Below, in pieces: positions 3,523-12,907 of a stretch of 18,170 bases of DNA (position 1 is the first letter of the stretch; each line of letters begins with the position of its first letter). A model generated the notes under the pieces. That model ran no database searches, was not told the origin of the DNA, and saw only the letters and a program-made list of their open reading frames with translations. Both the position numbers and the translations under genes were made by a program. The DNA comes from Rhizobiaceae bacterium (GTDB lineage Bacteria > Pseudomonadota > Alphaproteobacteria > Rhizobiales > Rhizobiaceae). Location: NCBI GenBank assembly GCA_913776675.1, contig CAJYRE010000390.1, positions 1 through 18,170 of the forward strand, written 5' to 3'.

Positions 3523-3771
3523 ATGGAAAAGCAAGTTATTGAATATGCAGGTGTACCTGTTGGAATCAGCGTGCCCGAAGGCAATCAGGTGAAGTTCATT
3601 GCCGTGAAATTTCCAGTGATTGATCTGGATGGCGGCATTTACAACAGCGTTGCCGAACTTCAGCGTGCCATTCGCACACACATGAAAAACAGTCAGAGCG
3701 AAGTCTACACAGGCAACAGCGAGCGTTCCTGGTCACCATCCAGCTCACGCAACGCCTTTAGCGCCGCCTGA
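3523..3771 (+). CDS. Small hypothetical protein, 3' end overlapping recO
   Basis: 82 residues, with a G-rich ribosome-binding stretch (seven G then AAG, from 3509) about 6 bases before the ATG. I do not recognise a named family. The first 60 residues or so ([34 protein letters not shown]) look like a real, compact alpha/beta protein of the kind seen as a short hypothetical gene next to recO in rhizobia. The last 22 residues or so are Ser/Asn-rich and lie antisense to the 3' end of recO (3705 onward), so this tail may be a recent extension by loss of an earlier stop. No signal peptide or membrane segment. Function unknown. Confidence 0.6.
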
Positions 3772-4472
3772 CAAAAGCCATCACGCGCGGCAGCAACAAC
3801 AATGCCGCGCGGCTCATAGACATGTCTTTCCAGAAAATATCCTGTCAATCGAAAAGCTTCCATCAGGGAATGCGTGTCGGCTCCCTGATTTTGACCAATC
3901 TTAAGAAAAGATGGCAAAATCAGCATCTTGTCAGCATAAGGCAAGCCTGCTTCCCGGCAGACGGCACGTCCGCTTTTGGGAGAAACAAAGGCAAGATCAT
4001 TTTCTGCTCCCGTTGCGACACAACGGGACAGGTCAAGCCCGAAGCCCAAATGATTCAGCACCGCCAGCTCAAAACGAACGAACAATTCACCCGCAGACCT
4101 TGGCTCATGCAAATGATCCAGAATAACATCCATTGCCTCGAACAAAGGCAGATGCGGCTACCGCTCGGGCAGCAAGCGTAACAGCGATGCAAGCGCCTGC
4201 ACGCCGTAGACCGATGTGGCCGTTTCCATCAACTGCCCTGCCCGAAGGCGTACAGGCTCCACGCGAAAATCACCAAGATGTTCTTCCAGCCGCGCGCGCC
4301 AGGTGACTTCCACAACATTTCCGGGCTGCAAAACCGGCTGCATGGCACGGGAACGACCACTGCGCACCAGCCCGAAATGCCGACCGCGATCACGGGTCAT
4401 CACTTCGGCCACAACACTGGTTTCTCCGTGCCGCCGTACACCCAAAACAATTGCGTGATCCGTCCATTCCAT
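3705..4472 (-). pseudogene. recO: recO, DNA repair protein RecO, interrupted by an in-frame TAG
   Basis: RecO mediates loading of RecA with RecF/RecR at gaps and anneals single strands. The N-terminal part (start ATG 4472, [19 protein letters not shown]) is a typical RecO OB-fold domain. It reads 104 residues to LLRLLPER and then meets TAG at 4158-4160. In the same frame, with no gap, the next codons read [15 protein letters not shown] and continue through the helical C-terminal domain ([45 protein letters not shown]) to a TAG stop at 3705. The combined length, about 254 residues, equals the usual rhizobial RecO. The lesion is therefore one nonsense codon, where I expect Glu or Asp in relatives; GAG to TAG would need one change. 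Both halves still look well conserved. It is either a recent pseudogene, a base-call error, or read-through. No clear ribosome-binding site exists for restart after the stop. The start has only a weak Shine-Dalgarno. Confidence 0.85.
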
Positions 4473-5748: not shown

Positions 5749-6696
5749 TTAATCGCGGGGGAATTCCAGCCCCATTTCCCGGAAACGCTCTGGATCATTG
5801 CCCCAGTTTTCACGCACTTTGACAAACAGAAACAGATGCACAGGCTGCTCGAGAATTTCAGACAGCTCCTTGCGGGAACTGGTCGAGATGGACTTGATGG
5901 CATCGCCATTCTTGCCCAGCACGATTTTTTTCTGGCTGTCGCGCTCGACATAGATCACCTGTTCAATCCGAACAGAGCCATCCTTGCGCTCTTCCCACTT
6001 TTCCGTCTCGACGTGCGAGGAATAGGGAAGCTCCTGATGCAAACGCAAAAACAGCTTCTCACGGGTGATTTCCGCCGCCAGTTGGCGCATCGGCAAATCC
6101 GAAATCTGATCTTCGGGATAGTACCACGGACCTTCCGGCAGGGTTGTGGACAGATAATCCATCACATCATCACAACCAGAGCCGTTGGTGGCCGAAATCA
6201 TGAATGTGCGTTCGAACTTGACGGCTTCATTCGCAGCCGACGCCAGCTTCAGCAGATCTTCGTGACGAACCTGATCAATCTTGTTCAGCACCAGAATCTT
6301 GGGCTGATGCACATCCTTCAGCGCTTCCAAAATCGCCTCAGCGTCGCCCCGCAGACCGCGTTCACTGTCAATCAGCAGAAGAATCAGGTCCGCGTCCTTG
6401 GCACCACCCCAGGCGGATGTCACCATGGCGCGGTCCAGCTTGCGGCGTGGCTTGAAAATACCAGGCGTATCCATGAACACAATCTGGGCGCGGTTGTGAA
6501 TGGCAATACCGCGCATGACAGCCCGCGTGGTTTGCACCTTATGGCTCACGATGGAAACCTTGGCACCAACAAAGCGATTCACCAGCGTGGACTTGCCAGC
6601 ATTGGTCGGCCCGATCAGCGCCACAAACCCCGAATGGGTGGGCTGCGCATCGGTTGGGCCTGCATCGTCGGCGGGTTGGTTTTCAAGTTCAGTCAT
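5749..6696 (-). CDS. era: GTPase Era
   Basis: 315 residues. Era binds the 3' end of 16S rRNA and is needed for 30S assembly. The GTPase motifs are clear: G1 GPTNAGKS at 29-36, G3 DTPG at 76-79, G4 NKID at 138-141 and an SAT G5 region. The C-terminal KH RNA-binding domain carries its GxxG loop (GKNGDAIKSI). The start is placed at the ATG at 6696 (MTELENQ): it lies 10 bases after the rnc stop codon, and the longer frame to 6831 overlaps rnc and shows no family match. The N-terminus carries about 20 acidic, low-complexity residues before the G domain, as in other alphaproteobacteria. Only a weak GGAT precedes the start, so translation is probably coupled to rnc. Confidence 0.95.
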   Translation of the reverse strand: MTELENQPADDAGPTDAQPTHSGFVALIGPTNAGKSTLVNRFVGAKVSIVSHKVQTTRAVMRGIAIHNRAQIVFMDTPGIFKPRRKLDRAMVTSAWGGAKDADLILLLIDSERGLRGDAEAILEALKDVHQPKILVLNKIDQVRHEDLLKLASAANEAVKFERTFMISATNGSGCDDVMDYLSTTLPEGPWYYPEDQISDLPMRQLAAEITREKLFLRLHQELPYSSHVETEKWEERKDGSVRIEQVIYVERDSQKKIVLGKNGDAIKSISTSSRKELSEILEQPVHLFLFVKVRENWGNDPERFREMGLEFPRD

Positions 6697-6706
6697 TTTT
6701 ATCCAA

Positions 6707-7426
6707 TCAATCTGAGGTGCCGGATCGAACCCAGACACCTTCGCGTTCCAGCAGTCGGGTGGCCGCCATCTGTTCAGCAGCCCGCTTAGAGCGCTCCACA
6801 CCCGTTTCAGGCGCAAGATTGCCCACTTCAACGGTCACTGTAAAGCGCGGATCATGGTCCGGCCCCGACCGATCCGCAATGCGGTAAACCGGGGTTTGCG
6901 CAAATTTGGCATGCGCCCATTCCTGCAATTCTGTTTTGGCGTCGCGGCGGCCTGCATCTTCGCCAGCGGCACGGTCTGACCAGAATTTTAACACAAAACG
7001 GCGCGCCGCTTCCAGCCCGGCATCGAGGTAGATGGCCGCAATCAGGCTTTCCACCACATCGGCACGCACATTCAGCATGTTCTTGCCGGTCAGTTTTTTG
7101 ACATCCGCACCTGTGCGGATATAGCGGTGCAGCTCAATCTGGTCGGCGACCGCCGCACATGTCTCTGCACTGACCAACTGATTCAGACGAACGGACAGCT
7201 CACCCTCCGTTGCGGCCCGAAACTCCTTGAACAGATGTTCGGCCATGCACAAGCCCAGAACCCGGTCGCCCAGAAATTCAAGCCGTTCATAATCGCCGCC
7301 TTTGGCATGACGGGCGCTGGAATGGGTCAAAGCCCGATCCAGCCGCTCTTTTTCAACAAAGCTGTAACCGATTGCGGCCTCGACCTTTTCACGCTCGTCT
7401 GCGCTCAGCGCTTTTGGCACCTTCAT
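6707..7426 (-). CDS. rnc: Ribonuclease III
   Basis: 239 residues. RNase III cleaves double-stranded RNA and processes rRNA precursors. The signature ERLEFLGDRVLGL lies at 47-59 with the metal/catalytic acidic residues E47, E50 and D54; the second acidic cluster is in ADVVESLIAAIYLDAG. A double-stranded RNA-binding domain follows at about 160-230 (AKTELQEWAH ... GVERSKRAAEQMAA). The start at 7426 (MKVPKALS) is favoured because its ATG overlaps the lepB stop as ATGA (7423-7426), the classic arrangement for translational coupling. The frame is open a further 15 codons into lepB. It is the middle gene of lepB-rnc-era. Confidence 0.95.
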   Translation of the reverse strand: MKVPKALSADEREKVEAAIGYSFVEKERLDRALTHSSARHAKGGDYERLEFLGDRVLGLCMAEHLFKEFRAATEGELSVRLNQLVSAETCAAVADQIELHRYIRTGADVKKLTGKNMLNVRADVVESLIAAIYLDAGLEAARRFVLKFWSDRAAGEDAGRRDAKTELQEWAHAKFAQTPVYRIADRSGPDHDPRFTVTVEVGNLAPETGVERSKRAAEQMAATRLLEREGVWVRSGTSD

Positions 7427-8181
7427 TGCACGCCCTTGAAGAAGCGGTTGAAACGCAGATTGGTCGGCCATTTCCAGATTTCGCTGAAGGCTGTATCATT
7501 ACCCAGCGAGAAGAAAATGATCGAAGCACGACCAACAAGATTCTCTGCCGGCACCATGCCAACATCAAAACGGCTGTCGGCGGAATTGTCGCGGTTATCG
7601 CCCATCATGAAATAATGATCCGGCGGGACAATAAATTCGCGCGTGTTGTCGCCATCGGAATTCGGCCTCTCATCCAACGTGTCATAGGTGCGACCATTGT
7701 CGAGGGTTTCGCGGAACACCGGAATATCACGACCGGGATCATTTCTATAATCGGAATTAAAGGTACCATCGGCCACCTTCGGCACGGCCTTGCCGTTGAT
7801 GTACAGCACCCCGTCCTTGACCTGAATGTGATCACCGGGCAAGCCCACAAGACGCTTGATATAATCGACATCTGGATTGGGCGGATAACGGAACACCACA
7901 ACATCGCCACGAGTCGGTTCGCTTTTCAAAATCCGACCTTCAAACAAATCCGGCGAGAAAGGCAAAGAGTATTTTGAAAAGCCGTAAGCGAACTTATTCA
8001 CGAAAATATAATCGCCCACCAGCAATGTTGGCATCATTGAGCCAGAGGGAATTGTAAACGGCTGAAACAGCACTGTGCGGATCACCGTTGCCAGAATCAA
8101 TGCTTGAACAATGACCTTGATATTTTCCCAAAGAGGATTCTGCTTCTTGTCGTCTCTATCCGTCACGCCGGTCTCTTTCAT
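7423..8181 (-). CDS. lepB: Signal peptidase I
   Basis: 252 residues. It is a membrane-bound Ser/Lys protease that removes signal peptides from exported proteins. One N-terminal membrane segment (about 22-38) is followed by the periplasmic catalytic domain. The nucleophile is S48 in IPSGSMMPTL, the general base K109 in YIKRLVGLPGD, and the conserved box GDNRDNSADSR lies in the C-terminal part. Length and boxes are normal for alphaproteobacteria. It is the first gene of lepB-rnc-era. The stretch upstream is about 600 bases without acpS, which usually precedes it in rhizobia. No strong ribosome-binding site is seen before the ATG at 8181. Confidence 0.95.
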   Translation of the reverse strand: MKETGVTDRDDKKQNPLWENIKVIVQALILATVIRTVLFQPFTIPSGSMMPTLLVGDYIFVNKFAYGFSKYSLPFSPDLFEGRILKSEPTRGDVVVFRYPPNPDVDYIKRLVGLPGDHIQVKDGVLYINGKAVPKVADGTFNSDYRNDPGRDIPVFRETLDNGRTYDTLDERPNSDGDNTREFIVPPDHYFMMGDNRDNSADSRFDVGMVPAENLVGRASIIFFSLGNDTAFSEIWKWPTNLRFNRFFKGVQ

Positions 8182-8776: not shown

Positions 8777-8929
8777 TTAGCGGGTGCGACGGAACAGGCC
8801 GTTATCGATTTCGCGCTGGCGATATTCCAGATCAACACGATCATAGGCGCCGTTCAGATAGGCCATTTCACGATCCTGAACGCTAGGAACGCTGAGTGCG
8901 CGGGCAAATTTACGAATAGGTCCAAACAT
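8777..8929 (-). CDS. Small DUF3563-like protein
   Basis: 50 residues, ATG at 8929, TAA at 8777-8779. An excellent ribosome-binding site (GAGGT, 7 bases upstream) supports translation. The protein starts MFGPIRKFARALSVPS, and its centre REMAYLNGAYDRVDLEYRQR continues to a basic end (GLFRRTR). The pattern of an acidic central segment with LEYRQR followed by a basic tail resembles the short DUF3563 family of alpha- and betaproteobacteria, whose function is unknown; I assign this by memory only. It is soluble, highly charged and probably helical. The upstream region holds two symmetric sites: GCACAA/TTGTGC at 8960-8976 and ATGCATT/AATGCAT at 9015-9029, suggesting regulation. Confidence 0.65.
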   Translation of the reverse strand: MFGPIRKFARALSVPSVQDREMAYLNGAYDRVDLEYRQREIDNGLFRRTR

Positions 8930-9014
8930 TGTCTTACCTCGTTTGCTTCAAGTTCATGAGCACAACATAATTGTGCCGCGCACAAATAACCAGCCACAAG
9001 GTCAAGCACCAGCC

Positions 9015-12328: not shown

Positions 12329-12907
12329 ATGTTTGACCCCAGAGAAAAAATTGCGCTGTTTATTGATGGTGCCAACTTATATGCAGCTTCAAAAAGCCTT
12401 GGTTTTGATATTGATTATCGCAAGCTTCTCAAGGCTTTTCAAAAGCGTGGTTATTTGCTGCGCGCTTACTATTACACCGCGCTCATTGAAGATCAGGAAT
12501 ATTCATCTATCCGCCCGCTGATCGATTGGCTGGATTACAATGGATATAAAGTTATCACCAAGCCCGCCAAGGAGTTTACGGACTCGATGGGGCGGCGCAA
12601 GGTGAAGGGCAATATGGACATTGAATTGGCGATTGACGCCATGGAGCAGTCCGAAACAGTCGATCATCTGGTGATTTTCTCTGGTGATGGAGACTTTACA
12701 ACCCTGGTTGAAGCGTTGCAGCGCAAAGGGCGCAAGGTGTCTGTTGTCTCCACCATGGCAACCCAACCGCCGATGATTGCCGATGATTTGCGCCGTCAAG
12801 CTGACCATTTCATCGATCTTGTCTCCTTGAAGACAGAAGTTGGCCGTGATCCCGGTGAGCGTCCTTTGCGCGTGAATGACCCGATGATGAGTGAGCCACT
12901 TATCTAG
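12329..12907 (+). CDS. NYN domain (LabA/DUF88-like) protein
   Basis: 192 residues from the ATG at 12329 (MFDPREKIALFIDGANLY), preceded by AAGGA about 10 bases upstream. Codons further upstream in the open frame are ignored because the conserved protein starts here. NYN domains have a PIN-like nuclease fold. The acidic metal-binding set is complete: D13 (FIDGAN), D97 (NMDIELAID), D120 and D122 (FSGDGDF). This predicts a metal-dependent ribonuclease, though the substrate is unknown for this family in rhizobia. The protein ends with TAG, 35 bases before a hairpin (12942-12968), so this amber codon acts as a normal stop. It is divergent from rpoZ. Confidence 0.85.
   Translation: MFDPREKIALFIDGANLYAASKSLGFDIDYRKLLKAFQKRGYLLRAYYYTALIEDQEYSSIRPLIDWLDYNGYKVITKPAKEFTDSMGRRKVKGNMDIELAIDAMEQSETVDHLVIFSGDGDFTTLVEALQRKGRKVSVVSTMATQPPMIADDLRRQADHFIDLVSLKTEVGRDPGERPLRVNDPMMSEPLI

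Follow-up and report, generated by a model that had tools for sequence, protein, structure and literature searches.

The window, by which we mean the whole 18,170-nucleotide stretch analysed here, is the entire contig C390 of a Rhizobiaceae assembly of 3,024,982 bases that is 66.48% complete and, to judge from its 602 contigs and 66% completeness, probably metagenome-derived. On the minus strand of the window, a reading frame for recO occupies positions 3705..4472 and is interrupted at codon 105 by a premature in-frame TAG (4158-4160). Translation of the minus strand from 3699 to 4472 agrees with the original prediction, which gave no strand, that a single in-frame TAG splits this gene, and a codon alignment with three sister genomes contains no indel, as had also been proposed. 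RecO is a recombination mediator of the RecFOR pathway, and members of the family bind DNA, SSB and RecR and help in the loading of RecA. The N-terminal half of 104 aa (4161..4472) carries the RecO_N domain and the start of RecO_C, with a PF11967 match of 4.4e-18 that spans 4158-4472. The C-terminal half of 150 codons (3708..4157) is open and conserved, and matches PF02565 (RecO_C) at 4.1e-22 on its own and at 2.2e-26 when read across the stop, so that both halves retain the family character ascribed to them earlier. TIGR00613, the RecO equivalog, also matches both halves, which cover positions 1-103 and 107-225 of its 239. The locus thus resembles other members of the family in having both domains in order, in having era and rnc adjoining as in the three sisters, and in being 80-83% identical to its nearest full-length relatives (P0001-P0005); it differs from them in the one in-frame TAG at codon 105, which leaves it without a single uninterrupted reading frame. 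Among solved structures, a profile built from three relatives matched E. coli RecO (3q8d) alone, and weakly. The adjoining genes era (5749..6831), rnc (ribonuclease III, 6707..7471) and lepB (signal peptidase I, 7423..8181), all on the minus strand, are uninterrupted by domain matches and locus comparison, with era placed in the same order as in the three sister genomes, and the remaining window genes common to the three sisters are likewise uninterrupted.

The column in which the TAG falls is acidic in 29/29 aligned relatives (21 D, 8 E) and holds D or E in 120/120 of the best protein matches (91 D, 29 E). Because the two halves match the same family in order, and because of this column in the 120 relatives, the recO frame is not a product of chance. 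The comparison with recO of relatives that had been suggested as a check was run, and no stop was found at the TAG column in the 29 aligned relatives, the 120 best matches or the other genus genomes. A RecO_C profile search of 40 genomes, including the present one, gave a match in 40/40, with a stop inside the match only in the present genome. When a sister's RecO was used as query against 63 genus genomes, again including the present one, recO was recovered as one match free of stops in 58/58 of those at least 90% complete. The five genomes below 90% are the present one (TAG), G063 (split), G066 (a match of only 23 residues), G015 and G017 (both free of stops). In G063, one contig carries recO as two fragments whose frames differ, and a three-frame reading places a frameshift ~9 codons past the column that corresponds to the window's TAG; this frameshifted copy lies near the start of its contig (C371, about 1-700), and the closeness of the two lesions may be due to chance. 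Interruption of recO is therefore found in 2/5 genomes below 90% completeness versus 0/58 at or above it (Fisher p 0.005 with G066 taken as not interrupted, 0.003 with G066 set aside), while the stop alone, leaving out the G063 frameshift, gives 1/5 versus 0/58, a weak p of 0.08. In 479 aligned copies of recO (split into its two halves), era, lepB, rnc, relA, rpoZ and the NYN gene, drawn from the recO-region loci of relatives and the three sisters, a stop was present in four alignments, in every case within 3 residues of the first or last aligned gene residues. The 104-aa N-terminal half was also searched against a collection of 5.8 billion proteins clustered at 90% identity, in which the sole identical sequence among the best 120 of 122 matches was that of the window's own contig, a singleton cluster, and the next match was 82% identical; these matches included no other sample of the species that could speak for the stop or against it. 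A search of the literature found no direct precedent.

To judge from its codons, the C-terminal half of recO is under purifying selection, with pairwise dN/dS of 0.05-0.14 to the three sisters at synonymous sites that are near saturation. Its dN to the three sisters is 0.17-0.18, as against 0.081 and 0.087 for G076 versus the other two and 0.027 between G050 and G073. The resulting dN ratio of 2.1, about twice, is higher than in seven other genes (1.05-1.8) and in the N-terminal half (1.5). Private residues relative to the 120 relatives number 1 in the N-terminal and 3 in the C-terminal half of the window's recO, compared with 0-1 and 0-7, respectively, in P0001-P0005 and with means of 0.42 and 1.49 over all 120. 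Long decay of the C-terminal half was accordingly rejected: the pairwise dN had pointed to faster change, and the private residues are unremarkable among the closest kin. An old pseudogene is not supported either, as the C-terminal half is open and without indels and has low dN/dS, albeit with raised dN, and few private residues. Codon 109 (Pro, 4146..4148), four codons past the stop, is off a nearly invariant column that holds H in 109/120 and Y in 11/120 relatives. In recO, relA, era, lepB and rnc together, 1084 columns are conserved at 97% or more (rpoZ and the NYN gene, with fewer than 60 sequences, gave no columns, and era was taken without its first 50 residues and rnc without its first 15); the window departs from these at one column, codon 109 of recO, and at 0 of the 975 such columns in the four genes other than recO. 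The number itself is unremarkable, since 50/83 relatives depart at a rate at least equal to that of the window, the sisters G076, G073 and G050 have 1, 1 and 0 departures, and 15/83 relatives have at least one in the C-terminal half of RecO. It is the position of the odd codon beside the stop that is suggestive, and no more than suggestive, of a local fault.

Other stops lying between two coding stretches were sought by a codon-score scan of stretches of 118 contigs, covering 712,534 of the 3,024,982 bp in three batches, with a threshold of 60 codons on each side in the first batch and 50 in the other two; a higher score cut-off missed recO itself. The contigs were chosen by number or for their tRNA or transporter genes, rather than as a strict random sample, and the splits in recO and urtD entered the scan as cases already known. 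Splits too near contig ends and frameshifts lay outside the scan, most of whose rows looked, on inspection by eye, like ordinary ends of genes and were set aside without individual testing. Four intragenic in-frame stops were accepted: the recO TAG, a TGA in urtD, a TAG in a PAS-domain protein gene and a TAA in an alpha/beta hydrolase gene. In urtD, which encodes the urea ABC transporter ATPase, the TGA lies at 3194-3196 of contig C448 and the halves match UrtD positions 2-94 and 96-242. The PAS-domain protein gene has its TAG at 184-186 of contig C470, on the minus strand, and is open over 870-873 aa in three sisters; its two parts lie one codon apart in the sisters, and a control comparison found the 61 residues beyond the TAG to be 98-100% identical to theirs. 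The hydrolase TAA, at 771-773 of contig C85, interrupts a gene that is open over 650 aa in G050 and 635 aa in G073 and has its own broken copy, with one TGA and one TAA, in the sister G076. This copy stands in a 99% complete genome, so that real pseudogenes do occur in this group. A TAG at 1642-1644 of contig C28 either interrupts a TniQ-like transposition gene or simply ends it; what follows this codon matches no family, and the case is doubtful. None of the 73 BPD_transp_1 matches in the assembly holds a stop; a stop was found in 1 of 53 listed ABC_tran matches (of 102 in total) here and in 0 of 97 listed in a sister. Since the BPD_transp_1 matches and the other window genes common to the three sisters hold no stop, the error rate cannot be very high. 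Approximately 2.9% of random substitutions in these codons yield a stop, and 3-5 stops over 622,629 coding bases would imply some 1.7-2.8 wrong or new bases per 10,000, a rate in keeping with a consensus that mixes strains or has low coverage, and no less with a genome in which a few pseudogenes have recently arisen.

These data lead us to prefer, with a probability of about one half, the reading that the recO TAG arose as an error at base level in this fragmentary assembly and that the real organism makes an ordinary full-length RecO. The TAG would then affect one codon of a recO that is normal elsewhere, its base presumably wrong rather than mutated, and the wrong base would have entered a consensus that was strain-mixed or, as seems probable, of low coverage. 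The original prediction had offered a recent lesion, a sequence error or tolerated read-through. The first two both fit, in that past the stop the frame and the conserved columns are preserved and none of the 58 more complete genus genomes is interrupted, and the third is without positive support. Error is favoured over a real allele mainly because interruptions of recO in the genus were seen only in assemblies less than 90% complete, and to a small extent because of the odd codon 109 beside the stop; the presence elsewhere in the assembly of isolated in-frame stops of all three kinds is a further point in its favour. Against it stand the dN ratio of the C-terminal half, above that of the seven other genes, and the weakness of the completeness test once G063 is left out. 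A redundant decayed copy beside a full-length recO, which had been raised as an alternative, is not supported, since searches with RecO_N, RecO_C and the full protein of a relative found only the window locus, although in an assembly only about two-thirds complete this is not final. The recO TAG is an ordinary thing for which no new mechanism is needed: like the consensus errors and nonsense alleles met with in other fragmentary assemblies, it is an isolated stop without clear decay, its sequence comes, among the matches listed, from one contig only, it lies in an assembly of 602 contigs, 66% complete, where further stops are scattered, and nothing sets it apart from them. Where one stop makes a conserved repair gene of an incomplete assembly look like a "pseudogene", caution is called for, and without reads this should not be taken as biological loss or recoding.

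The principal alternative, which we hold tentatively at somewhat less than even odds, is a real nonsense mutation, very recent or specific to the strain, by which RecO would be lost and the loading of RecA either impaired or carried out by another route such as AddAB. A recent event fits the otherwise preserved frame of recO; the raised dN of the C-terminal half may mark some real period of relaxed selection; and single stops split other genes, with the hydrolase gene broken in G076 as well. If the TAG is real, the N-terminal fragment, which lacks most of RecO_C, should be inactive. The absence of any interruption in the 58 more complete genus genomes speaks against a real mutation, the other odd codon, next to the stop, is explained at least as well by a local error, and recR is intact in the assembly; recF gave no match above the cut-off, which in a two-thirds-complete assembly says little. 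In Thermus thermophilus recO deletion is reported to be viable, the deletions made being always accompanied by addA or addB mutations (PMC11143384), and a text on Rhizobium etli names RecFOR and AddAB among the recombination proteins evaluated (PMC10932983). In a 2005 survey, RecO, counting putative orthologues, is given as missing from 19 genomes (PMC1193525). A real mutation would be the sole recO nonsense allele among the 63 genus genomes examined, and would offer a natural experiment on the extent to which another RecA-loading route can replace RecFOR.

Read-through or suppression of the amber codon, by which an amino acid would be inserted at the TAG and some full-length RecO made, is improbable. 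The locus does share with programmed read-through and amber reassignment an in-frame TAG followed by conserved coding sequence, the constraint on the C-terminal half is kept, and a second conserved gene, that of the PAS-domain protein, is also split by a TAG. The base after the recO stop is C, a context that may be leaky. The fold around and after the stop, which would also count in favour, is weak (z -2.0, with 8/200 shuffles as good), and a read-through signal past the stop was rejected on this ground. The suggested search for a suppressor tRNA was carried out: the anticodon was read for all 37 tRNA matches in the 66%-complete assembly and none was CUA, although a suppressor could be missing with the rest of the genome. 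RF1 is present (contig C131, 498 bits), and of 488 final stops in frames of at least 150 codons 59 are TAG, 262 TGA and 167 TAA, a mechanical count that may include premature stops. TAG is the final stop of recO itself (3705-3707) and of the NYN gene (12905-12907), and the terminator hairpin reported within 35 bases of the latter is a strong one that starts after 34 intervening bases. General reassignment of TAG, already considered unlikely in the original prediction, was rejected on this use of TAG as a final stop together with RF1. Amber-specific recoding is likewise unsupported, as TGA and TAA also occur among the premature stops and the share of TAG among these, 2/4 (P 0.65) or 3/5 with the doubtful case (P 0.45), is that of chance in very small numbers, random single-base changes in this genome's codons being expected to give TAG in 0.47 of new stops. 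Stops so scattered and of mixed kind point, small as the numbers are, to errors or ordinary pseudogenes rather than to amber recoding. In amber reassignment or programmed read-through, moreover, the stop would be conserved, and no stop stands at the TAG column in the relatives examined. That the lineage tolerates occasional ambers, as in recO and the PAS-domain gene, through a suppressor tRNA encoded in the assembly's missing third, with partial suppression making RecO, is more improbable still.

It is very unlikely that RecO is made as two cooperating chains, the second restarted past the stop at TTG 4143-4145 or ATG 4131-4133 (minus strand, 5 and 9 codons past the stop codon), since the break falls inside the C-terminal domain rather than between domains (the RecO_C match starts at profile position 6 when read across the stop and at position 26 for the C-terminal half alone), no well-placed ribosome-binding site was seen by eye, the ATG is not new, being ATG in the three sisters as well, and a split of this kind was found in no relative examined.

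Three minor features of the region may be recorded. The G+C content is 52.8% for the window and 54% for the 3.4-kb recO locus, lower than the 57.5-64.5% of the recO loci from other genus genomes that were compared. Between relA and lepB, at 8780-8947 of the minus strand, 56 residues are 87.5% identical to an open reading frame of a sister (locus L193, 6071-6292). Finally, an 82-aa gene without a Pfam match, at 3523-3771 on the plus strand, overlaps the 3' end of recO (3705-4472, minus strand) head-on by 67 bases, and the same head-on overlap is present in the sister genome G050.
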